Below are positions 52,432 to 64,000 of a stretch of DNA of 64,000 nucleotides, piece by piece. Both the position numbers and the translations under genes were made by a program. Below the pieces are notes generated by a model, which was given only the letters and a program-made list of their open reading frames with translations, ran no database searches and was not told the DNA's origin. The stretch spans positions 1 through 64,000 of the forward strand of contig NZ_BEWP01000001.1 in the NCBI RefSeq assembly GCF_002723995.1, written 5' to 3'. The stretch's first letter is position 1. Each line of letters opens with the position of its first letter. The stretch is from Gluconobacter kondonii. GTDB taxonomy: Bacteria; Pseudomonadota; Alphaproteobacteria; Acetobacterales; Acetobacteraceae.

Positions 52432-53799
52432 ATGTCAGACGACTCATCGTCTTCTCAGGCAGCGAGGCCCGGCGGTATCCAGCGCGTCATGAGCAATCTG
52501 GGTGTCCTTCTCGGGGGACGTGCCGTGAATGCTCCGCTGAGCCTTCTTCATATCTGGCTCGCGACCCATCTGCTGGGAAGCTACGGCTTCGGGCTCGTTG
52601 CGATGATGTATGCCTTCGCCCGAACGATGGGGGATATCGTCGACTTTCAGTCCTGGCAGACCGTTCTACACTACGGCCTTAAACCCCTAACGCAGGGAAA
52701 TCGTCGCAGTTTCCAGAAAATCGTGTCTTTCAGCCTTCTGCTGGACATTTCGGGAGGATTGCTGGGCTTCGGTGGCGGCGTCCTCATCAGTCTTCTGGCC
52801 ATGAATTTTCTGGGATGGCCACCTCAGATCCATATCATCGGCGTCGTCTACTGCGTTTCCATTCTCTTTATGGCGTCCGCGACCGCGACCGGCCTGCTGC
52901 GAGTGTTCGACCGCTATGACCTGCTGGCCGTACAGGGGACCATTGCCACCATCGTCCGGGTCATCGGAACGGCCTCGATGGCTCTGGGCTGGGCTTCTGT
53001 GGCAGCCCTTGCCAGCGTCTGGATTGCCGCGGAAGCCGCTGCGTGGGGCACGATCTTCTTCATGGCAGCCCGCGAAATGTATCGCCGCGACCTGATCCGC
53101 GGACTGTTTCAGGAAATGCGCGGGATTATCCCCGAACTTCTGAACGGACAGTTTTTTCGCGCCTATCCAGGGATCTGGCGCTTTGCACTGAATACGAATC
53201 TCAACTCCACGCTGGCCCTCGCTTTCGGTCATATCGGCACGCTCGTGGTCGGCGCATTCGTCGGCCCAACGAGCGCGGGCTATTACCGGATTGCCAGCCA
53301 GATCGCGGCAGGAATCGCCAAACCCGCCACCCTGATCCAGACGACCGTTTATCCGGAAATGGCCCGGCTATGGCGTGATCGGGCCATGAACCGGCTGTAT
53401 CGCATGACAGGACAGATCGCCCTGATGGCCGGAGGGATCGGAACGGCCCTGCTCCTGCTGACACTGTTCGCAGGACGCCCGCTCCTTCAGCTTTACATCG
53501 GACACACAGGCGCTACGGAAGCGCTGCCCGTCACGCTGTGGCTGCTGGCTGCCGAAGTCGTAACCGTCTGGGGTCTGCCGCTGGAGCCGCTGCTGTTCAC
53601 GACAAATCGCTCAGGTGCTGCAATCGGCGCACGCATTCTCGAATGTCTGTTCTTTCTCCCGGCGCTTGTGGTGATGGTCCGGCAGTATGGGTTGAGCGGT
53701 GTGGGCCCGGCCACGTTCTGCGGCGTAACCCTCCTTATCATGACCCAGCTTGTTCTCGTGATCCGCGCGGCCCGTAGTCCCGATGGTCTTGCAGCATGA
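52432..53799 (+). CDS. Polysaccharide-type flippase (Wzx/MOP family)
   Basis: A 455-residue inner-membrane protein of the oligosaccharide/lipid flippase (MOP) superfamily. About 12-14 hydrophobic helices are visible, starting with SNLGVLLGGRAVNAPLSLLH, the usual first helix of Wzx-like proteins; FVGPTSAGYYRIASQIAAGI and TTVYPEMARLW are further family-type segments. It overlaps the next gene by 4 bases (ATGA), and that gene in turn overlaps the fatty acyl-AMP ligase, so the three are translationally coupled to the sphingolipid genes. A flippase for a lipid-linked head group or polymer is the simplest reading; there are no other polysaccharide genes nearby. Confidence 0.85.
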   Translation: MSDDSSSSQAARPGGIQRVMSNLGVLLGGRAVNAPLSLLHIWLATHLLGSYGFGLVAMMYAFARTMGDIVDFQSWQTVLHYGLKPLTQGNRRSFQKIVSFSLLLDISGGLLGFGGGVLISLLAMNFLGWPPQIHIIGVVYCVSILFMASATATGLLRVFDRYDLLAVQGTIATIVRVIGTASMALGWASVAALASVWIAAEAAAWGTIFFMAAREMYRRDLIRGLFQEMRGIIPELLNGQFFRAYPGIWRFALNTNLNSTLALAFGHIGTLVVGAFVGPTSAGYYRIASQIAAGIAKPATLIQTTVYPEMARLWRDRAMNRLYRMTGQIALMAGGIGTALLLLTLFAGRPLLQLYIGHTGATEALPVTLWLLAAEVVTVWGLPLEPLLFTTNRSGAAIGARILECLFFLPALVVMVRQYGLSGVGPATFCGVTLLIMTQLVLVIRAARSPDGLAA

Positions 53800-54926
53800 A
53801 GGTGGCTTTCCCCCTTATCGGCCAGCGTCATCAGACCCTTCACGCCCTGCCCGTCGCGCTGGAGATTTCCGCCCGCCATCCGGACGTGGCTGTGCATGTC
53901 TCGTGCCTGACCGTCAGCCATCTGGAACTGGCCCGTTCCCTCGCAACCCTCTATCCCGAGGCCCGCGTCCAGTTCGACCTTCTTCCCATTTCCCAGAGAC
54001 TTCGCCGCCGTATCGAAAAACATGGACTGCGGGTGGTAGACCGGCTGATCGGCCTCTTCGCATCCCGACATTATTTCCGGGGTTTCGACGCCATCATCGT
54101 GCCAGAAGCGACATCTCTACAGCTTCGCCGCATGGGCGTAAGACGTCCGAAAATGATCTGGACCGGACATGGCGCCGGAGATCGGGCCATCGGATTTGCC
54201 CGCCACCTCGGAAAATTCGACTTTCTGCTGATTCCCGGACGCAAGGTGGAACAGCGCATGCTGGAAAAAGGCATCATTCGTCCCGACGCCTATCATCGCG
54301 GCACCTATGCCAAGTTTGATCTCGTGCGGCGCATGGATGCGAAGCGGCCGAAGCTTTTTAATAACAACCGGCCCACGATCCTGTATAATCCACACTTCGT
54401 CCGCCGCCTGTCTTCCTGGCCCGAAATGGGGCATCAGATCCTGAAATTCTTTGCCGGACAGGACCGCTATAATCTTGTTTTCGCGCCTCATTTCCGTCTT
54501 TTCGACAACCGTCGCGAAGAAGGCGAAGCGTTGAAACGTCAGTATGGGCATCTCCCGCACATGCTGATCGACCCCGGAAGCCACCGAAGTATCGATATGA
54601 CCTATACGATGGGTGCAGACCTCTATCTGGGGGATGTCAGCAGTCAGGTGGCGGAATTCATGATCCGTCCCCGCCCTTGTCTCTTTCTCAACGCCCACCA
54701 TGTGAAATGGCGTGGAGATCCGGATTATCAGTTCTGGACGCTGGGTCCGGTAACGGAAAATGTGTTGGATCTGGGCGACAAGATCGAGAATGCCTTCAAA
54801 ACGCATCCTCGTTTTCTTGAGGCGCAGCGCCAATATGTATTAGAGACATTCGAAACGCTGGGTGATGAACCCACTGCTCCCGCTGCGGCGGACGCAATTG
54901 TCGATTTTCTGAAAAGGGCAGCCTGA
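53796..54926 (+). CDS. TagB/TagF-like glycerophosphotransferase-fold protein
   Basis: A 376-residue cytoplasmic protein with a GT-B-like fold. It contains KMIWTGHGAGDRAIGFA in the middle and the C-terminal donor-site pattern LYLGDVSSQVAEFMIRPRPC, close to the conserved D-x-S-S-x3-(D/E)-F segment of CDP-glycerol glycerophosphotransferases (TagB/TagF). Such enzymes transfer glycerol phosphate from CDP-glycerol to lipid-linked acceptors. It starts in the overlap ATGA with the flippase gene and its stop overlaps the ligase start by one base, so it is coupled to both. I infer a role in adding a phospho-glycerol-type head group to a lipid, possibly ceramide. Family resemblance only. Confidence 0.7.
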   Translation: MKVAFPLIGQRHQTLHALPVALEISARHPDVAVHVSCLTVSHLELARSLATLYPEARVQFDLLPISQRLRRRIEKHGLRVVDRLIGLFASRHYFRGFDAIIVPEATSLQLRRMGVRRPKMIWTGHGAGDRAIGFARHLGKFDFLLIPGRKVEQRMLEKGIIRPDAYHRGTYAKFDLVRRMDAKRPKLFNNNRPTILYNPHFVRRLSSWPEMGHQILKFFAGQDRYNLVFAPHFRLFDNRREEGEALKRQYGHLPHMLIDPGSHRSIDMTYTMGADLYLGDVSSQVAEFMIRPRPCLFLNAHHVKWRGDPDYQFWTLGPVTENVLDLGDKIENAFKTHPRFLEAQRQYVLETFETLGDEPTAPAAADAIVDFLKRAA

Positions 54927-56737
54927 TGTCAGGCAACCCAAACGGAGCTAGTCCAGGTTTGACCGAGGCCAACCAGAACCCAACCGCCAATCCCGTTCCG
55001 ACACCAAGCCGATCCGGCCTGAAACGACGCTACGGAGATTTCCCCAGCTTTGCAGCCGCACTCGACTACGCGGCGCAGGGTGAGAGCGGATTCAACATCT
55101 ATTCCGGTCGCGGACAGCTTCTTGAAGCTCTGCCCTACCGCCTGCTTCGTGAACAGGCCCGCTCCATGGCCTGCCGTCTGCTGGGTCTTGGCCTCACACC
55201 CGGCGACCGTGTTGCAATCGTCGCGGAAAGCGACGGCGATTTCGCCCGAATTTTCTTCGGCTGCCAGTATGCCGGCCTTGTTCCCGCGCCGCTTCCCCTC
55301 CCCGTCGCGTTCGGCGGCAAGGACGGGTATGTGGCAACACTGCGTGGCATGATCCAGAGCGCCGCCGCCCGTGCCGTCGTGGTGCCCGACGTGATCGGAA
55401 GCTGGACCGGCGATATCGTCGAGGGTCTGGATTTGGTCTTCGGCGGTTCTCCTGCCGATCTCAACCGCCATGCCGAAGCGCGCGTCGAGCTGCCGGAAAT
55501 TGCCCCGACAGCGCTGTCTTATCTCCAGTTTTCCTCGGGCAGCACCCGCTTTCCGATGGGCGTTTCGGTTACGCAGGCGGCTGGCATGGCCAACGCCCGT
55601 GCAATCGCCCGCGACGGCCTGCACGTCCACCCAGCCGAAGACCCGCGCGATGACCGCTGCGTGTCGTGGCTGCCGCTCTATCACGATATGGGCCTCGTCG
55701 GCTTCTTCCTGACACCCCTGACCTGCCAGCTTTCCGTTGACCTGCTGCCGACCCGCGAATTTGCGCGCCGTCCGCATGTCTGGCTGGACCTGATTTCGCG
55801 CAATCGCGGCACGATCGCTTACAGCCCGTCTTTCGGTTACGAACTCTGCTCTCGACGTAGCGGTCAGGCTGACCTGGACCTGTCTTGCTGGCGGATTGCA
55901 GGGATTGGTGGCGACATGATCCGCCATCACATCCTCGAAGGCTTTGCTGAACGGTTTGCGTCCAACGGTTTCCGCGCCAGCGCTTTTGTCGCGAGCTACG
56001 GCATGGCAGAAGCAACCCTCGCGATCAGCTTTGCTCCGCTCGACACAGGCATCCAGACCGACACGATCGATCTGCGCCGCCTTGAAAAAGATGGTATCGC
56101 GGAGCCTTCCAACAACCCGTCTCACCCGCTGCGCACTTTCGTGCTGTGCGGTGCAGCGTTGCCTGACCACCAGATCGAAGTCCGGGATGCGGCTGGCCGT
56201 GACTTGGCAGACCGGCAGGTCGGAACCGTCTATGTGCGCGGGCCGAGCCTCATGTGCGGTTATTTCCGGCGCCCTGACGAGACCGAAGAGGTTCTCGATG
56301 CAGATGGCTGGCTGAACACAGGCGATCTTGGTTATCACCTCAACGGTCAGATCGTCGTCACAGGACGCGCCAAGGACCTAATCATCATCAACGGTCGCAA
56401 TATCTGGCCGCAGGATCTGGAATGGTCCGCCGAAAGCGAGATCCCGGCCCTGCGTTCGCGCGACGTCGCAGTATTCTCCGTGGATGGCGAGGAAGGCGAA
56501 AAGATCGTGGCCCTCGTCCAGTGCCGTGCGAGCGAGGATGCGAGCCGCAACCAGCTTCGTGATGAGGTCACGAATCTGTTCCGTCGCCAGCACGGGGTGG
56601 ATGTCGACGTCATCCTCGTCCCGCCTCGCACGCTGCCTCAGACATCCTCTGGCAAGCTGACCCGCGCCAGAGCCAAGACCATGCTGCTCTCCGGGCAATT
56701 TGAACAGCAACCCGAAGCCACGTCTTCAGCTGCCTGA
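54926..56737 (+). CDS. Fatty acyl-AMP ligase of the sphingolipid cluster
   Basis: A 603-residue adenylate-forming enzyme of the fatty acyl-AMP ligase/acyl-ACP synthetase type. It activates a fatty acid as acyl-AMP and would load it on the ACP encoded next. Key segments: the P-loop-like LQFSSGSTRFPMGVSV (where the usual S-G-S-T-G-x-P-K-G reads S-G-S-T-R-x-P-M-G), AFVASYGMAEATLAISF, the acidic TGDLGYHLNGQIVVTGRAKD region, and the C-terminal QTSSGKLTRAR with the catalytic Lys. Thr/Pro-rich first 30 residues are disordered. The start overlaps the previous stop (TGATG). It corresponds to the ligase that pairs with ACP and serine palmitoyltransferase in alphaproteobacterial sphingolipid loci. Confidence 0.88.
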   Translation: MSGNPNGASPGLTEANQNPTANPVPTPSRSGLKRRYGDFPSFAAALDYAAQGESGFNIYSGRGQLLEALPYRLLREQARSMACRLLGLGLTPGDRVAIVAESDGDFARIFFGCQYAGLVPAPLPLPVAFGGKDGYVATLRGMIQSAAARAVVVPDVIGSWTGDIVEGLDLVFGGSPADLNRHAEARVELPEIAPTALSYLQFSSGSTRFPMGVSVTQAAGMANARAIARDGLHVHPAEDPRDDRCVSWLPLYHDMGLVGFFLTPLTCQLSVDLLPTREFARRPHVWLDLISRNRGTIAYSPSFGYELCSRRSGQADLDLSCWRIAGIGGDMIRHHILEGFAERFASNGFRASAFVASYGMAEATLAISFAPLDTGIQTDTIDLRRLEKDGIAEPSNNPSHPLRTFVLCGAALPDHQIEVRDAAGRDLADRQVGTVYVRGPSLMCGYFRRPDETEEVLDADGWLNTGDLGYHLNGQIVVTGRAKDLIIINGRNIWPQDLEWSAESEIPALRSRDVAVFSVDGEEGEKIVALVQCRASEDASRNQLRDEVTNLFRRQHGVDVDVILVPPRTLPQTSSGKLTRARAKTMLLSGQFEQQPEATSSAA

Positions 56738-56865
56738 GCCTCAGCTCCCGTTCGCCAAACTTCTTGATCAAAACAGAGGGCTGGCGAACGCGACGGGTTT
56801 GGAGCATAAGGCTTGCCCAAGATTGCATATATTCAAGCATGCACAGACATTGAGAGTTGAAGTCC

Positions 56866-57120
56866 ATGACTGACAGCATCACCGACATTTCCGCGATGAT
56901 CATTGAAAAACTGCTTGCCAACCCGAAAGTTCCCCGGGACATCGATGGCAACAGCAAGATTGTCGAAGACCTTGCCTTTGACAGTCTGGCCGTCATGAAT
57001 TTCGTCATGGAAATCGAAGATGAGCTCGACGTTTCCGTACCCCTCGACAAGCTGGCTGATATCCGGACCATCAACGATCTGGCCGCCTGCCTGCTGACAC
57101 TGAAGGCCGCTCAGGCGTGA
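56866..57120 (+). CDS. Acyl carrier protein dedicated to serine palmitoyltransferase
   Basis: An 84-residue acidic ACP. The 4'-phosphopantetheine attachment serine is Ser40 in LAFDSLAVMNFVMEIEDEL. Four-helix ACP layout with VEDLAFDSL before helix II and DIRTINDLAACLL at the end. ATG 56866 is preferred to TTG 56857. It lies 128 bases after the acyl-AMP ligase and its stop overlaps the GTG start of serine palmitoyltransferase, so a dedicated carrier that hands palmitate to that enzyme is likely. Housekeeping AcpP has a different DSLDTVE motif. Confidence 0.9.
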   Translation: MTDSITDISAMIIEKLLANPKVPRDIDGNSKIVEDLAFDSLAVMNFVMEIEDELDVSVPLDKLADIRTINDLAACLLTLKAAQA

Positions 57121-58310
57121 TCGATATTTTTGCCAAACATGCAGGACTGCGCGAGTCTTATGACGGTCTGACGGCAACGTCTCCGCGCAATCCGTTCGAA
57201 GTTGTGATTGAACGCCCGGTTTCCGCCAGCGTCGGCATTATTGAAGGCCGTGAAACGCTCCTGTTCGGGACCAACAACTACCTCGGTCTGAGTCAGTCTA
57301 AAAAAGCCATCGAAGCCGCTGTGGAAACAGCAGAAACGATGGGCGTCGGCACGACGGGTTCGCGTATCGCCAATGGTACTTTCGGCTTGCATCGCAAGCT
57401 GGAAACCCGTCTGGCTGAATTCTTCCGGCGCAAGCACTGCATGGTGTTTTCTACCGGGTATCAGGCTAACCTGGGTACGATTTCAGCACTCGTAAACAAA
57501 GACGATGTCCTTCTGCTTGATGCGGACAGCCATGCCAGCATCTATGACGGTGCCAAACTGTCCGGTGCGCAGGTCATCCGCTTCCGCCACAATGATCCGG
57601 TCGATCTGGAAAAGCGCCTTGCGCGTCTCAAGGATCATCCCGGCGCGAAGCTGATTGTCGCCGAGGGCATCTATTCCATGACGGGCAATGTCGCCCCTCT
57701 GGACAAATTCGTGGACATCAAGACGCGCCACGGTGCTTATCTGATGGCTGACGAAGCCCATTCGTTCGGCGTCATGGGTACGCATGGCCGTGGCGTTGCA
57801 GAAGTTCAGGGCTGCGAAGACGGGATCGACTTCGTGGTTGGGACCTTCTCCAAGTCGCTTGGTACCGTCGGCGGATATTGCGTCACGGACCATGACGGCG
57901 TTGACCTGATGCGCCTGTGCTCACGGCCCTACATGTTCACGGCGTCCCTTCCCCCCGAGATCATTGCCGCCACCATGGCAGCGCTCGAGGACATGCAGGA
58001 ACACCCGGAACTGCGGACGAAGCTTCAGGACAATGCGGCCCGTCTGCATGCAGGTCTTCAGAAGGCTGGCCTCAAGACCGGTGAACATATCTCCCCCGTC
58101 GTGGCCGTAACGCTTGAAACCGTGGATCAGGCCGTCGCTTTCTGGAACGCACTGCTGGAAAACGGGGTGTACGTGAACCTCTCGTTGCCCCCGGCAACAC
58201 CTGACAACCGACCTCTGCTGCGTTGTTCGGTGATGGCGGCCCATTCGCCCGAGGAAATCGACCGCGCGATCGCAGTCTTCGGCGAAGTCGCCAGACATTT
58301 CGGGCTATAA
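57117..58310 (+). CDS. spt: Serine palmitoyltransferase
   Basis: A 397-residue PLP-dependent alpha-oxoamine synthase that condenses L-serine with a palmitoyl thioester to 3-ketosphinganine, the first step of sphingolipid synthesis. The PLP lysine is Lys246 in VGTFSKSLGTVGGYCV; His139 in DADSHASIYDG stacks on PLP; Asp212 and His215 in LMADEAHSFGV bind the ring. TNNYLGLS and GTTGSRIANGTFGLH are also diagnostic. The TFSKSLGTVGGY form (with T-V-G-G) distinguishes it from AONS and KBL. GTG 57117 overlaps the ACP stop (GTGA), so translation is coupled. A bidirectional terminator follows 5 bases after the stop. The bacterial enzyme is soluble. Confidence 0.93.
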   Translation: MIDIFAKHAGLRESYDGLTATSPRNPFEVVIERPVSASVGIIEGRETLLFGTNNYLGLSQSKKAIEAAVETAETMGVGTTGSRIANGTFGLHRKLETRLAEFFRRKHCMVFSTGYQANLGTISALVNKDDVLLLDADSHASIYDGAKLSGAQVIRFRHNDPVDLEKRLARLKDHPGAKLIVAEGIYSMTGNVAPLDKFVDIKTRHGAYLMADEAHSFGVMGTHGRGVAEVQGCEDGIDFVVGTFSKSLGTVGGYCVTDHDGVDLMRLCSRPYMFTASLPPEIIAATMAALEDMQEHPELRTKLQDNAARLHAGLQKAGLKTGEHISPVVAVTLETVDQAVAFWNALLENGVYVNLSLPPATPDNRPLLRCSVMAAHSPEEIDRAIAVFGEVARHFGL

Positions 58311-58315
58311 TCCAT

Positions 58316-58348
58316 AAAAAAGGGGGATCCAACGGATCCCCCTTTTTT
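58316..58348. terminator. Bidirectional terminator after spt
   Basis: A-tract (58316-58321), arms gggggatcc (58322-58330) and ggatccccc (58334-58342) around aac, then six T (58343-58348). It serves spt on the plus strand and the nucleotidyltransferase-like gene on the minus strand, whose TAA stop (58349-58347) lies partly in the T-tract. Confidence 0.93.
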
Positions 58349-59285
58349 ATGCTTTCGGGCGGCCCAACAGCTTTCGGGCACGCCACAGAAGTCGTGGCAG
58401 CATCACAAGCGGATGCCGACGCTCAAAGGGCGACAACTGCATATCAAAACCGGTATGACGCTGTATTTTCCACGCCAGATAGGACGCGCCGTTTTCGAAG
58501 GTGAATGCTGCTTTTAGCAGTCGGGCCACATTCCTTGGACGGCCGGATGTCTGCACCAGCGCCCAGCGATGGACGGCTTTTCGACGCAGAGTCGTACTCA
58601 AAACAGGCTCCAGAGTATCGCCATGAGCGGAGAACTGAAGTCCTGCCCTTGCCCATCCCAGCGGCAGCAGGGCCGCGTAACGCTCCTCCTGTCCTTCCAG
58701 AATGCTGTTACCACGTCCCTTTTTCTCAACCCGCAATTCAGACGCATAAGTATGGGCGAATAGGGTTTGCCAGAACTCCAGCGCCGTCATGGAAGGCGTA
58801 CCCAGCAGAGCAGCCCAGCATGAGGCCGTCGTCACACATCCCACAATCAGAGTGAGAAGAGAGTCCGCGCTCTCCGGTCCGCGCACCCAGACCAGCCGGA
58901 CCGGCTGGCAGAAACGGGCCCAGATCGTGGTGTCCAAAGCGCCAAGGCTGGTGCGGGCGGCAAACTGCTCACGGGAGAGCACTGCAATCTTTGCGCGCAG
59001 AACGCGGTCCTGATATCGAAATTCCGAATACCGCACATTGGGCGGCAGCACGAGATTTCCGGTCCGGGCGATCAACCCGCCTGAAAAGCCTTCTGCATTT
59101 TCGGTAACAATATAGAAATCAAGAATACCGTCCGGATCGGACTTACGCAGCAGCGAGCCATAAAACAGCACGCCAAGTGGCAGCTCAGGACAAGCACGGG
59201 CCAAAGCATCCGCAAAAGCGCTGACACCGGGATCGACAGGAGTGGTCAGTTCACCGATCAGCCGCCGTTCGAGCGCGTCAGGCAT
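58347..59285 (-). CDS. Nucleotidyltransferase-fold protein of the sphingolipid cluster
   Basis: A 312-residue protein. LPLGVLFYGSLLRKSDPDG followed by ILDFYIV has the G-S ... D-x-(D) arrangement of the nucleotidyltransferase fold (Gly43-Ser44, Asp50, Asp52, Asp56). The remainder is unfamiliar, with a hydrophobic middle (LLTLIVGCVTTASCWAALLG) and a basic C-terminus ending in RRHPLVMLPRLLWRARKLL, which could be a membrane-associating helix. It overlaps the kinase-family gene by 8 bases and follows it in the same operon. A role in activating a head group (for example CDP transfer) fits but is not shown. The longer start at 59309 is possible. Confidence 0.6.
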   Translation of the reverse strand: MPDALERRLIGELTTPVDPGVSAFADALARACPELPLGVLFYGSLLRKSDPDGILDFYIVTENAEGFSGGLIARTGNLVLPPNVRYSEFRYQDRVLRAKIAVLSREQFAARTSLGALDTTIWARFCQPVRLVWVRGPESADSLLTLIVGCVTTASCWAALLGTPSMTALEFWQTLFAHTYASELRVEKKGRGNSILEGQEERYAALLPLGWARAGLQFSAHGDTLEPVLSTTLRRKAVHRWALVQTSGRPRNVARLLKAAFTFENGASYLAWKIQRHTGFDMQLSPFERRHPLVMLPRLLWRARKLLGRPKA

Positions 59286-60243
59286 GGAGAAACCGGAAAC
59301 CGGGCGCACGTTCCAGCCTCAACACACCATCTGGCGCGGCGCTGAAAACTTCTCCGTCGAGGACAAAATCGCTGTCGGTCACGAGCGTCATGTCGTCCGT
59401 GCGGCCACTGACGTAATCGGGATGGCGACGCAACCAGCGCGGCGCACGACCACACAGGAGCGCCCATGTCGCTCGCAGAAGACTTTCGGGCTGTGCGCTG
59501 ACATCAAGATATCGAAGACCCTCGACATTCGGTTCAGCATCCCAGAACGGCCAGATCCCGCGTGACAGGCACGAGAGCCCCGTTACAAGAAACATGAAGC
59601 TCTGCCCATCATAGACATGACCGCCTGTCTCGATCCGAAGCGGATCTCCCCGGAGCCATGCTTCACGGCTTTTGCGGAACATGAGACTGACGAACGTGGT
59701 AAGAAGCGTGATACCGACGGCCAGATCATGCGGCGCAAAACGCAGAACCGTGGGCGAATGCGCGATGCGGACAGCACGCGCAAATCCGGCACACCCTCCA
59801 AAAAGCCCAAGCACAGGCATCCGGTCAGTTCCGGGCCAGGACAGACGCATCGGCGTACGGATGCTGGAGCGCAGGGCCCCTGCCTTCAGACGACGGATGG
59901 CTTCCATACCCCGCAGACCAAACCCCACGTCGCTGGCAATCAGGTTCGTATTGCCCGAGGCCAGAACCACGATATCCGGTAGGCGGTCTGCGGGATAGGC
60001 GCGTGCAATGGCAGTCAGGGCCGTACTGACCGTCCCGTCTCCGCCATCAATAATAATGGTGTCGATACCCCGTTCGTAGAGCTGGCGAACATGAGCGGTG
60101 GTTCCTTCCCGACTGTCGGAGGGAACGAAATCCTTCCCCAAAAGGGCCTGAGCCTCGACAGCAAAACTGGAACCGTTCCGGCGGTTTTTCCGGCTACGGG
60201 CATTATGGATCAAGGCTATGCGCACTAGGGAGGCAATCTTCAT
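59278..60243 (-). CDS. Diacylglycerol/ceramide kinase-family lipid kinase
   Basis: A 321-residue lipid kinase of the DAGK_cat family. RIALIHNARSRKN opens the domain; IDGGDGTVSTALTAIA (GGDGT, 67-71) is the nucleotide-binding loop and VLASGNTNLIASDVG the following conserved strand. The C-terminal DDMTLVTDSDFVLDGEVF with DGE is also canonical. Members phosphorylate diacylglycerol, sphingoid bases or ceramide. Because it sits beside serine palmitoyltransferase, phosphorylation of ceramide is the best guess. It is coupled by an 8-base overlap to the nucleotidyltransferase-like gene and is divergent from the metallophosphoesterase gene. Confidence 0.83.
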   Translation of the reverse strand: MKIASLVRIALIHNARSRKNRRNGSSFAVEAQALLGKDFVPSDSREGTTAHVRQLYERGIDTIIIDGGDGTVSTALTAIARAYPADRLPDIVVLASGNTNLIASDVGFGLRGMEAIRRLKAGALRSSIRTPMRLSWPGTDRMPVLGLFGGCAGFARAVRIAHSPTVLRFAPHDLAVGITLLTTFVSLMFRKSREAWLRGDPLRIETGGHVYDGQSFMFLVTGLSCLSRGIWPFWDAEPNVEGLRYLDVSAQPESLLRATWALLCGRAPRWLRRHPDYVSGRTDDMTLVTDSDFVLDGEVFSAAPDGVLRLERAPGFRFLHA

Positions 60244-60363
60244 ATGGCGTTCGGCTATGCGGGCGGGTCTAGCACGGCTATGATGGAACTGCCAGAACGG
60301 CACATCCCGGCAGTCCCGGGCGCCGTCTCATGGCGTGGATACTGACAAGGCCTTTCTTTGATC

Positions 60364-61302
60364 ATGACCCCTGACCTGCCCGCAGATCCCCTCGCGTCGC
60401 GGCACACGTCCCCTGTCACAACGCCTCATGTCACATTGGCCCATATTTCAGACCCGCATCTGCCTCCGCCGCCCGTTCACTGGCGTGCGGCGCTCAACAA
60501 GCGCGCCCTGAGCCTTCTGTCCTGGAAGAAGCACCGCCAGTACGTCCATCTCGCGCAGACCTGCGCTGCACTGGTGAAGGATATCGGACGCACAGGCGTG
60601 GACACGATCCTGGTAAGCGGGGATCTGACCAATTTCGGAACGCCGGACGAATTTGCCGAGGCCGCCCGCTGGCTGGAAGCACTCCCCGCTCCGGCTCTTG
60701 TGATTCCCGGCAATCATGACTGCATGGTCCGGCAATCGGCTTCCGTCGGACTGGATCAGTGGGAACGCTGGTCCTCGCGACAATATCCGTATGTGCGTCT
60801 GCAGAACGGGGTTGCGATCATTGGCGTTAATTCCGGCATCCCTACAGCCCCTTTCATGGCTTACGGTCGCGTTGGACGCAGGCAGCGGGAACGGCTTGAA
60901 GCTCTGCTGGAGCAGCTTGGAAAAGAAGGACTGTGCCGGGTGGTGATGATCCACCATCCCCCAAAGCGCGGCCTCGTCCCCTGGCGCAAATCCTTGCTGG
61001 ATTACCGCGAGGTTGCCGCCCTCCTGCGACGGGCCGGAGCGGAACTCGTCCTGCACGGTCATTCGCATGACGCGACGCTGACGCATATCGCCGGAACGGA
61101 TATTCCGTTGCTGGGCGTGGCCTCGGCTTCCCTGACAGATGACCGCCCTCACCGCCAGGCCTGCTGGAATCATCTGACAATCCATCCATATGAAGAAGGC
61201 TGGAAAATCGATCTGGCCCGTCACCGGCTGGATGGTTCGGTCAGCGAGCGGGCCTCATGGAAGAGATCCGGGCGGAAACAGGCAGGAAGGACAGGCGCGT
61301 GA
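60364..61302 (+). CDS. Calcineurin-like metallophosphoesterase of the sphingolipid cluster
   Basis: A 312-residue two-metal phosphoesterase. All signature blocks are present: HISDPHL (Asp30, His32), VSGDLTNFG (Asp85, Asn88), PGNHDC (Asn115, His116, Asp117), MIHHPP and LHGHSHDATL. The C-terminus is basic (RSGRKQAGR). The family hydrolyses phosphate mono- or diesters, including lipid-linked ones such as in LpxH. The substrate here may be a phosphorylated lipid intermediate, given the neighbours; it is divergent from the kinase and coupled to the LptF-like gene by a GTGA overlap. ATG 60364 is chosen over TTG 60358. Confidence 0.83.
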   Translation: MTPDLPADPLASRHTSPVTTPHVTLAHISDPHLPPPPVHWRAALNKRALSLLSWKKHRQYVHLAQTCAALVKDIGRTGVDTILVSGDLTNFGTPDEFAEAARWLEALPAPALVIPGNHDCMVRQSASVGLDQWERWSSRQYPYVRLQNGVAIIGVNSGIPTAPFMAYGRVGRRQRERLEALLEQLGKEGLCRVVMIHHPPKRGLVPWRKSLLDYREVAALLRRAGAELVLHGHSHDATLTHIAGTDIPLLGVASASLTDDRPHRQACWNHLTIHPYEEGWKIDLARHRLDGSVSERASWKRSGRKQAGRTGA

Positions 61303-62453
61303 AACAGCGGGCCAATATTCTGGACCGCTATCTGCTGACACAGATGGCGCCGCCATTTGCAATCGCGCTTCTGGCGATGCTGGTCGCCCTGCTGCTCGAA
61401 CGCCTGCTGTCGCTTTTCGACTATCTCGCTTCCGCGGGAAGCTCTCTTGCGACCTGCATCGCGCTCCTGACGGATCTGCTGCCCCATTATTTCGGCATCG
61501 CCCTACCCGCAGCGTTGTGCATCGCAGTCTTCCTGACCATCCGCGGCATGAGTGACAACAACGAGATCGACGCTCTTCAGGCAGGTCGCGTCTCGCTCAT
61601 GCGGATCAGCCGTCCTTTCATGATCGTCGGCCTGCTTCTCGGTGCGGCGAGCGTGTTCCTGTACGGCTATATCCAGCCCGTGGCCCGGTATGACTATCGC
61701 GCAGGCTTCTATTTTGCCGAACATACCGGCTGGGCGCCCCATCTTCAGGCCGGGATGTTCGCCTCCACCTCCAGCAAAGCCGTCATGACCGCAGACAGTG
61801 TCAGCCATGCCGGAACCCGCCTCAAACGCGTTTTCATCCGCGAAGTTAGCCCCAGTGGGGTCGCCCACATCATCACGGCGCAAACTGGCGCGCTGACCAT
61901 TTCGGAAAAAACGCGTAGCACGCGCCTCGATCTGTGGAACGGAGAAATCGTGGACGATCCGTTTCAGGCCACCCATCCTCACAAGCCGACAGTGACGCAT
62001 TTCGAACATGTCGTCCGCGTCATCGACCGTCCGGACAAGGAAACCGCGTTCCGCACACGCGGAGCGGACGAGCGTGAACTGACCCTGCTCGAACTGGCAC
62101 ACGACCTGCGCTACGGCCTGCCGGGCATCGAATACCGCACACTCCGGGCTGAAATGGACTTCCGCATGGCCCGCGCCATTGCCATTCCCTTCATTCCTCC
62201 CCTCGCAGTCGCACTGGCCATCAGCGCGAGACGACGCAAATCCGTCTGGGGCCTGATTGCCGTCGCGGTCATTCTGATCGGCTTCGACCAGACTTTAATG
62301 TTCGGCCACAGCCTCGCCTCCACGGGTCGTCTGCCGATCTGGCTGGCGATCTGGGTGCCGGAAGCCCTGTTCTGCATAGGCTGTCTCGCGGCCCTGCTGC
62401 GCCGTTCCCGCGGTTCGTGGCGCCGTCGCCTGCTGAAACGGGCCGCAGCATGA
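61299..62453 (+). CDS. LptF/LptG-family (YjgP/YjgQ) permease, first of pair
   Basis: A 384-residue inner-membrane protein of the YjgP/YjgQ (LptF/LptG) family: ILDRYLLTQMAPPFAIALLA is the conserved first helix, followed by two more helices and MRISRPFMIVGLLLGAASVF, a periplasmic beta-jellyroll (about 125-270) and three C-terminal helices (about 285-375). LptF/LptG form the transmembrane dimer of the ABC exporter that extracts lipopolysaccharide. I chose GTG 61299, because AGGAAGGA (61284-61291) is 7 bases before it and its GTGA overlaps the stop of the phosphoesterase gene; ATG 61257 is the alternative. No LptB gene is adjacent. It may be the general LPS exporter or a special one for sphingolipid. 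Confidence 0.85.
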   Translation: MKQRANILDRYLLTQMAPPFAIALLAMLVALLLERLLSLFDYLASAGSSLATCIALLTDLLPHYFGIALPAALCIAVFLTIRGMSDNNEIDALQAGRVSLMRISRPFMIVGLLLGAASVFLYGYIQPVARYDYRAGFYFAEHTGWAPHLQAGMFASTSSKAVMTADSVSHAGTRLKRVFIREVSPSGVAHIITAQTGALTISEKTRSTRLDLWNGEIVDDPFQATHPHKPTVTHFEHVVRVIDRPDKETAFRTRGADERELTLLELAHDLRYGLPGIEYRTLRAEMDFRMARAIAIPFIPPLAVALAISARRRKSVWGLIAVAVILIGFDQTLMFGHSLASTGRLPIWLAIWVPEALFCIGCLAALLRRSRGSWRRRLLKRAAA

Positions 62454-63559
62454 CCGCCTCTACGCCTCCCATGCCGCGTTTCGTGCTCATCAAGGCGCTC
62501 AACCGGGCCCTGCTGGGCCGGTTCATGTTGTGCGGTGTCGTGCTCGTCTCTCTGCTGGAAATTCTGGCCCTGATGGAGAAGACGACACCGATCCTGAACC
62601 GGCATCTCGGTCTTCGCGGGATTCTGACCTTCGCGTTCCTGCATCTACCTGCACTCAGCATCGACATCCTGCCGCTGGCCTTCATGGTCGGCGCGCTCTT
62701 TCTGCTGACGCAGATGACGCTGTCGAGCGAAATCTCCGCCTTACGCGCAGCCGGACTTTCGACACCCGCGCTGTATCGCCTGCTCCTACCCGCCGTTCTG
62801 ATTGTCGGCATCGGCGGCACCTGCGCTCAATACTGGCTTGTTCCGCCCTGCGAAAACGCTCTCACCACATGGTGGAACCGAACAGATCCTCTGGCCGGAC
62901 AGGACGGACAACCCGAAGACAACATCCTGTGGTTTCGCGCAGGGCCAACACTGGTCCGGATCGGGCAGATCGCCCAGGGAGGATATTTCCTGCGGGATGT
63001 GACGATCTATCACCGTGACTCCACGGGGTTGCTCACCGGAACCGAACACACAAATACGCTAACCTACACACAGGGCCAGTGGCATCCTGATGGTGCGCAG
63101 GATCTTTCCCTTTCCGAAGACAAATCGTTCGTAAATGTCACAACGGGCGATAGCACCTTCATTATCCCCGCCACCCCATCCACCATCATGACACTGTCCC
63201 AGAGCGGTGCTTTCGTCACACCGGGGCAGATCAGTGCCATTCTGCACAAGGGGGCTCCGGCAAGTCTGCCCAGAGCCACCTACCGCATGGCCCTCTTTGG
63301 CGGCATGATTTTACCGTTCGAAATTGCAGTAATGCTTCTATTGACGCTTCCGGTGATCTATATCCCTCCCCGTGCAGGACTTCGAAATCCGCTTCCGGTG
63401 TATGTTCTTGGCGCCGGAATGGGCTTCGTCATCCTGCAGGGAATGATTTCCGCACTTGGAAACGCAGGCACGCTGCCAGCCCCGCTGGCTGTCAGCGTCG
63501 GGCCATTGCTTGGCGCCCTTCTGGGTTTAACCTGGGTCCTGCGGATGGAGGAACGATGA
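62450..63559 (+). CDS. LptF/LptG-family permease, second of pair
   Basis: A 369-residue partner of the preceding permease, with the same three-helix, jellyroll, three-helix plan. FMLCGVVLVSLLEILALMEK and SSEISALRAAGLSTPALYRL are the family's first helix and coupling segment; the jellyroll spans about 125-270, including FLRDVTIYHRDSTG. ATG 62450 overlaps the previous stop (ATGA). Together the pair could form the membrane part of an exporter that carries a lipid across the periplasm along a jellyroll bridge. The following hydroxylase gene overlaps by 4 bases, so lipid tailoring and transport are coupled. Confidence 0.85.
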   Translation: MTASTPPMPRFVLIKALNRALLGRFMLCGVVLVSLLEILALMEKTTPILNRHLGLRGILTFAFLHLPALSIDILPLAFMVGALFLLTQMTLSSEISALRAAGLSTPALYRLLLPAVLIVGIGGTCAQYWLVPPCENALTTWWNRTDPLAGQDGQPEDNILWFRAGPTLVRIGQIAQGGYFLRDVTIYHRDSTGLLTGTEHTNTLTYTQGQWHPDGAQDLSLSEDKSFVNVTTGDSTFIIPATPSTIMTLSQSGAFVTPGQISAILHKGAPASLPRATYRMALFGGMILPFEIAVMLLLTLPVIYIPPRAGLRNPLPVYVLGAGMGFVILQGMISALGNAGTLPAPLAVSVGPLLGALLGLTWVLRMEER

Positions 63560-64000
63560 GCACTTTCACTGCACCGTGGCGCAACATGTCCGCCATCCGG
63601 ACTGGCCGCAGCTTTGATCTGGGGAAGATGAACCTCTCCCAGCTCTGGTTCGCCTATCTGACCTATCCGACAATCCTGCTCTATTTCGCCCTGATCGCGG
63701 GCGCTGCCTGGGCGGCCCTGCATTTCTCGACTGCCCTGTGGGTGACACTCATCCCCGTTCCCGTCGTGATCGTGGTCTACCCGCTGGCCTGGTATGCGAT
63801 CCACCGCTTCATCCTTCACGGGCGCTGGCTCTACCGCAACCACTGGACAGCTTCGCTATGGAAGCGCATCCATTTCGACCATCATCAGGACCCGCACCTG
63901 CTGGACGTTCTGTTCGGCTCGCCACTGAACACGGTGCCGACGATGGCTATCATCACGATGCCGATCGGCGGTCTGATCGCGGGCTGGAGTGGGGCGTTCT
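63556..64000 (+). CDS. Fatty acid hydroxylase / sterol desaturase-family enzyme (partial)
   Basis: Start of a di-iron membrane hydroxylase; 148 residues are visible before the window ends. Two transmembrane segments (about 33-57 and 60-80) are followed by histidine boxes: His83 and His88 (HRFILHG) and His106, His109, His110 and His114 in KRIHFDHHQDPH, the H-x4-H and H-x2-H-H patterns of the FA_hydroxylase family. ATG 63556 overlaps the LptG-like stop (ATGA). Acetic acid bacteria make ceramides with 2-hydroxy fatty acids, so this is a good candidate for the 2-hydroxylase or for sphingoid-base C4 hydroxylation; the sequence does not tell which. Confidence 0.85.
   Translation, partial: MSTFTAPWRNMSAIRTGRSFDLGKMNLSQLWFAYLTYPTILLYFALIAGAAWAALHFSTALWVTLIPVPVVIVVYPLAWYAIHRFILHGRWLYRNHWTASLWKRIHFDHHQDPHLLDVLFGSPLNTVPTMAIITMPIGGLIAGWSGAF

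Follow-up and report, generated by a model that had tools for sequence, protein, structure and literature searches.

The 64,000-nucleotide stretch of Gluconobacter kondonii DNA analysed here (the window; contig NZ_BEWP01000001.1, positions 1 to 64,000; Alphaproteobacteria, Acetobacterales, Acetobacteraceae) carries a MOP-family flippase gene and a gene for a TagF-like transferase, termed Tag1, immediately upstream of a sphingolipid gene cluster containing aasR, acpR and spt, the gene of serine palmitoyltransferase (SPT; Table 1). Judging from gene context, we lean, if only slightly, towards the view that the flippase and the TagF-like protein constitute the head-group and translocation arm of complex sphingolipid assembly. 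The flippase gene overlaps the TagF-like gene by 4 nt (ATGA), which in turn overlaps aasR by 1 nt (TGATG), and acpR and spt follow. The three open reading frames and both overlaps are as described in the initial annotation, whose term “translationally fused” applies in the sense of overlapping genes but not in that of a single protein. In all 15 other loci of the genus in which Tag1 is linked to spt (L032-L046), aasR likewise has a candidate start that shares 1 nt with the stop codon of the TagF-like gene, and a flippase/TagF overlap of 4 nt is seen again in both genomes of f51, another family; the overlaps are therefore regarded as more than chance. The cluster had been taken to end at spt, a boundary that proved too narrow, as it runs on through CpgC-like and CpgB-like genes, a phosphoesterase gene and lptFG and past the end of the window.

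The linkage was surveyed across the order, with Tag1 defined as an ortholog of at least 48% identity and as linked where it lies within 6 kb of spt. A TagF-like match is found in 69/150 genomes (Tag1 in 60, paralogs or fragments only in nine), and 99/150 have SPT over the cut-off. In 51 of the 60 Tag1 genomes the gene is linked to spt, in eight it lies elsewhere in an SPT genome, and one (G067) is without SPT over the cut-off. Tag1 is present in 59/99 SPT genomes as opposed to 1/51 others (Fisher p ~1e-13, kinship ignored). The order Tag-aasR-acpR-spt, followed by CpgC, CpgB, phosphoesterase, lptF and lptG, is recurrent across the Acetobacteraceae, and the window belongs to a Gluconobacter-type genome, whose TagF-like protein shares 94-97% identity with counterparts in G. 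cadivus, G. albidus, G. cerevisiae, G. vitians, G. oxydans NBRC 14819 and others. The proposal that both genes belong with the sphingolipid genes is thereby upheld, with SPT present in 59/60 Tag1 genomes and the gene order repeated in f51. Not every acetic acid bacterium with spt has the two genes ahead of it, however, as the ortholog is absent from 40/99 SPT genomes of the order.

At the level of the class, for which two genome sets with identical handles were taken as the same genomes, a TagF-like match occurs in 13/385 genomes. Beyond the window’s own family, eight genomes from four families have a strong match, and SPT is found in 7/8 of these compared with 45/380 in all. This count leaves out the own family (G000, G003, G004) and the weak, SPT-less matches G399 and G411, with which it becomes 7/10. 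The exception among the eight is G239, whose relative G349 has SPT. Both f51 genomes show the order flippase-Tag-aasR-cerR-acpR-spt with CpgC, CpgB and CpgA nearby, their Tag being only 46% identical, while in the other three Tag-bearing families outside the own family Tag is located apart from spt. No SPT of G004 exceeds the cut-off; a divergent SPT-like gene, CpgC-like, CpgB-like and phosphoesterase genes, lptFG and two Tag genes lie there in one 19-kb stretch.

The arrangement resembles the ceramide phosphoglycerate (CPG/CPG2) region of Caulobacter, CC_1168-CC_1152. This region begins with CC_1166 (potential flippase), aasR, cerR, acpR and spt, continues after spt with CC_1161 (cpgC), CC_1160 (cpgB, ceramide kinase), CC_1159 (cpgA) and CC_1158 (phosphoesterase), and ends with LptF2, LptG2, cerS, CC_1153 and CC_1152 (cpgD) (PMC11324152; PMC12275187). 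The shared order comprises a flippase before aasR, acpR, spt, CpgC-like, CpgB-like, phosphoesterase and LptF2/LptG2, and the nucleoside triphosphate (NTP) transferase beyond lptG in the window genome is a possible counterpart of CC_1153; these likenesses are assignments by family and position rather than by alignment with Caulobacter’s own sequences. Caulobacter differs in having cerR between aasR and acpR, where the window cluster has none, and the window genome contains TagF-like, GT4 and GINT1_N genes instead of CpgA-like and CpgD-like matches at the thresholds given below. For G. oxydans, PMC9386255 gives cerR as GOX1849 and spt as GOX2056. The modification had been called undescribed, a word that needs narrowing, since the same Caulobacter reports already place the putative flippase CC_1166 in the aasR-spt region (PMC11324152) and liken CPG2 synthesis to TagD/TagF (PMC12275187). 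Our literature search found no paper treating a TagF-like gene in a sphingolipid setting and none pairing serine palmitoyltransferase with a glycerophosphotransferase, most subscription papers on acetic acid bacterial lipids lying outside its reach.

Further likeness is seen in the spt cluster of E. coli B BL21(DE3) (ECD_RS14825-ECD_RS14870), where aasR, cerR, acpR and spt are accompanied by lptGF and by a flippase of MOP type that shares 31% identity with that of f51. In a 37-kb stretch, no TagF-like, CpgC-, CpgB- or CpgA-like gene was found (tblastn, window and f51 queries, E<=0.01). This E. coli locus (L238:1283-11843) also contains a YtfJ-family protein and a hypothetical protein, and its MOP protein is labelled “lipopolysaccharide biosynthesis protein.”

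CpgC-like and CpgB-like genes lie downstream of spt in 45/51 linked clusters of the order, the window included. The CpgC-like protein is found in 28/240 class genomes (E<=0.001), all of which have SPT, and SPT also occurs without it, for example in G161. Y50, G51, S52 and D64 are invariant in 24 sequences of this family, Pfam scans of the 24 members returned no family, and the best match of a PDB profile search was a generic nucleotidyltransferase domain (E 0.03). A likeness by eye to mitochondrial Tam41-type cytidine diphosphate (CDP)-lipid synthases is not claimed, as the Pfam and PDB profile searches did not show it. Being without a Pfam model and confined to SPT genomes in the sample, the family is a clear target for enzymology.

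From the observed genes, overlaps, families, synteny and co-occurrence we infer the following substrates, products and transport steps. AasR, AcpR and Spt would start the long-chain base, a step backed by families and synteny; the CpgB-like kinase would then make ceramide-1-phosphate, and the CpgC-like protein and/or the downstream NTP-transferase a nucleotide-activated intermediate. On this intermediate the TagF-like enzyme and the GT4 glycosyltransferase would build the head group in the cytoplasm, the MOP flippase would move the lipid, fully or partly assembled, to the periplasmic leaflet, and LptF2/LptG2 would deliver the sphingolipid to the outer membrane.

In this family, the TagF-like protein and GT4 appear to take the place of CpgA and CpgD, and the product should therefore differ from Caulobacter CPG2. 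With the CpgA-like protein of f51 and the CpgD-like protein of f126 as queries in place of Caulobacter’s own, neither a CpgA-like (E<=1e-15) nor a CpgD-like match (E<=1e-8) was obtained in the window genome. At the same thresholds, a CpgA-like match occurs in 2/150 order genomes (G126, G139) and a CpgD-like match in 30/150, close (E<1e-70) only in these two; the other 28 are at E 1e-23 or weaker and include the Tag1 genomes G097, G108, G142, G041, G128 and G145. Both G126 and G139 have SPT and no TagF-like match. As the close CpgA-like and CpgD-like genes thus fall in the same two Tag-negative genomes of 150, another head-group arm is proposed for the window cluster. A more specific reading, less likely than not, is that a glycosylated phosphosphingolipid not described so far is produced by acetic acid bacteria and certain other sphingolipid-making Alphaproteobacteria via a TagF-type enzyme replacing CpgA/CpgD, together with GT4 and a GINT1_N-type protein, the overlapping MOP gene encoding its flippase and CDP-ceramide from the CpgC-like protein possibly serving as the activated substrate. 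If true, this lipid would correspond, in bacteria, to the glycosyl inositol phosphorylceramides of plants or to CPG2, and the apparent exchange of CpgA/CpgD for a TagF-like protein and GT4 leads one to expect another sphingolipid head group in the bacteria of vinegar and food.

MOP flippases have about 12-14 membrane helices, and a crude Kyte-Doolittle scan of the window’s flippase gave seven strongly hydrophobic 19-residue segments. Flippase genes are also present in spt clusters without an adjacent Tag, namely in f126, in the genera g17 and g38 and in E. coli BL21(DE3). In the flippase tree, f51, f126, g17 and g38 join at a support of 84, with the Acetobacteraceae set and E. coli apart; as no single group emerges, either one old flippase or repeated recruitment may lie behind this distribution. 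For Caulobacter sphingolipids, no flippase or lipid transporter has yet been identified according to PMC11087976. By its gene context, recurring in the spt clusters of several families, the MOP protein is a good candidate for the missing sphingolipid flippase, which is testable in the tractable Gluconobacter oxydans.

Several findings weigh against assigning the pair to sphingolipid assembly. Tag1 of the window falls 1.1 bits below the PF04464 cut-off, a marginal membership, and PDB searches returned chance-level matches only, whether with a single TagF-like protein (best E 0.72) or with a 40-member profile, which recovered no TagF (best E 0.41). Only 23/51 linked clusters have an intact flippase gene next to Tag1; the gene is damaged in G051 and G055 and reduced to remnants in G033, G135 and G145, and in two loci that were inspected, rRNA-type sequence (L059) and unrelated genes (L086) lie upstream. 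In 20 of the 28 linked clusters without an intact adjacent flippase (G145 being also among those with remnants) a contig end lies within 750 bases upstream, so that its absence there is not established. In 6/51 linked clusters (L043-L046, which belong to the window’s own genus, L065 and L066), the 6-14 kb visible past spt contain no CpgC-like or CpgB-like genes. Furthermore, the window genome carries a second, paralogous flippase/Tag pair, on contig C2 and away from spt, and G067 has kept Tag1, GT4 and GINT1_N without SPT over the cut-off. Finally, the replacement argument rests on two CpgA genomes, and Tag and CpgA coexist in f51 and f58, which makes replacement no general rule.

A possible, though doubtful, alternative is that the products of the flippase, TagF-like and GT4 genes synthesise and translocate a surface glycan or teichoic-acid-like polymer carried on undecaprenyl and chemically unrelated to sphingolipids, these genes sharing only an envelope locus with the sphingolipid genes. 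PF01943 is indeed a polysaccharide-flippase family, glycosyltransferases adjoin both the paralogous flippase/Tag pairs and the unlinked Tag1 genes, Tag lies amid glycan-type genes in f91, and both the SPT-less island of G067 and the six linked clusters without kinase and CpgC-like genes next to spt fit such a polymer. This explanation is at odds with the near confinement of Tag1 to SPT genomes, the overlap of its gene with aasR in the genus and the presence beside unlinked Tag1 of a gene that elsewhere belongs to the sphingolipid cluster. The unlinked Tag1 genes, nine with that of G067, cluster inside the linked ones (support 90/81, below the tool’s 95 mark; one long branch), and a GT4 gene lies beside eight of them (all but that of G059), joined in seven of those eight by GINT1_N in the stretch seen. 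The GT4 genes next to these eight group together (SH-aLRT 95, quick tree) within a larger clade of 18 rows (99); the remaining 10, including that of the window genome, are all situated downstream of lptG. Among the 19 order loci in which the sequence extends 4.5 kb or more past lptG, 16 carry such a GT4 there; the exceptions are L060, L082 and L107, the last belonging to G106, where GT4 adjoins the unlinked Tag1. In G059, where Tag1 has no such companion, GT4 has remained close to lptG. Because its GT4 neighbours nest among those downstream of lptG, the unlinked Tag1-GT4 seems to reflect the splitting of one cluster rather than a separate polysaccharide locus, and an independent polysaccharide role for unlinked Tag1 is weakened on the same grounds. 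The initial annotation had named occurrence of the pair away from spt and beside polysaccharide genes as evidence against its own proposal, and this is seen in part: 9/60 Tag1 genes are unlinked (one in an SPT-less genome) and the paralogous pair exists, but 8/9 adjoin a GT4 of the cluster type. GINT1_N alone is no sphingolipid marker, since it is found in 7/81 class genomes, three of them (G159, G189, G218) without SPT.

In the wider family of Tag1, 22/40 aligned members match PF04464 at E<=0.01. No other family is matched by several members, Glyco_transf_4, Epimerase_2 and Glyco_trans_4_4 each being matched by single ones. Invariant positions of the 40-sequence alignment include, among others, H16, H125, G126, H200, P231, H232, D280, S282 and S283. 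TagF enzymes carry catalytic histidines in comparable motifs, and the conserved His-Gly, Pro-His and Asp-x-Ser-Ser motifs of the TagF-like family may be of this kind. The likeness to TagF consists of a weak but repeated profile match, whereas the window protein differs in scoring below the curated cut-off and in coming from a genome without a CDP-glycerol synthase over its cut-off. It is unlikely that Tag1 is instead a GT-B glycosyltransferase using a nucleotide sugar, which would yield a plain glycosphingolipid and leave the phospho-genes to another branch; the single-member matches to the three families named above, the GT4 in the same cluster and the linked clusters without a kinase near spt are in line with this, but the 22 members reaching PF04464 and the kinase and CpgC-like genes following spt in most linked clusters (45/51) are not.

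As to the donor of a glycerol-phosphate head group, the CDP-glycerol synthase model TIGR01518 is matched over its cut-off (165.4 bits) in 0/150 order genomes. All 150 have weaker matches, those listed being mostly frames near 500 amino acids, which we take to be HldE-type proteins; the only listed match of the window genome is a 481-amino-acid frame of 46 bits, and short-frame matches of 112-158 bits occur in four order genomes (G141, G091, G002, G022). The window genome would thus seem to hold no obvious donor enzyme for the Caulobacter CDP-glycerate route or for a CDP-glycerol route. That Tag1 moves glycerol phosphate from CDP-glycerol onto ceramide or a ceramide derivative, along the lines initially proposed, is most improbable, for although the weak PF04464 similarity, the phosphoglycerate-bearing CPG/CPG2 of Caulobacter (PMC11324152; PMC12275187) and the short-frame TIGR01518 matches, one of them in the Tag1-positive G141, offer some precedent, neither an over-cut-off synthase in the order nor a CpgD-like match in the window genome was recovered.

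Several smaller observations concern the distribution and state of the TagF-like genes. Remnant or decayed TagF-like copies lie 5' of aasR in L091 (G021), L100 (G072) and L139 (G102), which suggests that the gene was lost repeatedly. In G128 (L081:571-3063), the flippase and the TagF-like protein share one open frame of 845 amino acids, either a natural fusion or a draft sequencing error; it was given no weight, as an apparent one-base difference from a close relative falls in a C/G run and is possibly a sequencing error. The rRNA-type sequence of L059 (4000-9000; G025) lies directly upstream of the TagF-like gene, as read from open reading frames, and such sequence may be the reason why many drafts break there. 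The six linked clusters without CpgC-like and CpgB-like genes next to spt lack the whole CpgC/CpgB/phosphoesterase/lptFG block in the stretch seen.

The Sphingomonadales are sphingolipid makers, and a tblastn search of 72,556 plasmid records gave 15 TagF-like matches, all from Sphingobium, Novosphingobium, Croceicoccus or Rhizorhabdus. Two of the three sphingomonad plasmid loci inspected (L230-L232), namely L231 and L232, resemble the window genome in combining TagF-like, flippase, GT4 and GINT1_N genes, but differ in an identity of about 35% to Tag1, in having no spt adjacent in the stretches seen and in flippases on separate branches. The TagF-like gene of L230 is on a plasmid typed as conjugative.

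Table 1. Genes of the spt cluster in the window and directly beyond its end (C1, contig of the window)
Product	Position	Strand	Length, family match and remarks
MOP-family (Wzx-like) flippase, candidate sphingolipid flippase	52432..53799	+	455 aa; PF01943 3.6e-11, over cut-off (43.4 bits, cut-off 28.2)
TagF-like (PF04464-related) transferase, Tag1	53796..54926	+	376 aa; PF04464 1.9e-4, 21.0 bits vs cut-off 22.1
AasR, fatty acyl-AMP / acyl-ACP ligase	54926..56737	+	603 aa; NF006624 3.1e-275, over cut-off
AcpR, specialised acyl carrier protein	56857..57120	+	PF00550 3.3e-11; position 5' of spt as in PMC9386255
Spt, serine palmitoyltransferase	57117..58310	+	NF047599 1.8e-186, over cut-off
CpgC-like protein, position of CC_1161	58347..59309	-	no Pfam/NCBIfam family; YGS...D nucleotidyltransferase-type motif
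Lipid kinase, position of CpgB (Caulobacter ceramide kinase)	59278..60303	-	PF00781 2.1e-10, over cut-off
Metallophosphoesterase, position of CC_1158	60358..61302	+	PF00149 3e-18; kept across the cluster in relatives
LptF of second LptF/LptG pair (LptF2-like)	61257..62453	+	PF03739, over cut-off
LptG of second pair (LptG2-like)	62417..63559	+	PF03739, over cut-off
Fatty-acid hydroxylase, start in window	63556..64000, on to C1:64371	+	PF04116; L239 = G000:C1:63500-71500
NTP_transf_3 protein	C1:64368-65123, beyond window		PF12804
GT4 glycosyltransferase	C1:65120-66190, beyond window		PF00534
GINT1_N protein	C1:66208-67203, beyond window	-	PF24793

The window genome has two LptF/LptG pairs, and as the other pair, on contig C7, scores higher, that of the window is regarded as the second one. 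The hydroxylase gene overlaps lptG by 4 bases. Past the end of the window (C1:64001-68519, L239), GINT1_N is followed by one further gene and then by an inositol-monophosphatase-family gene.

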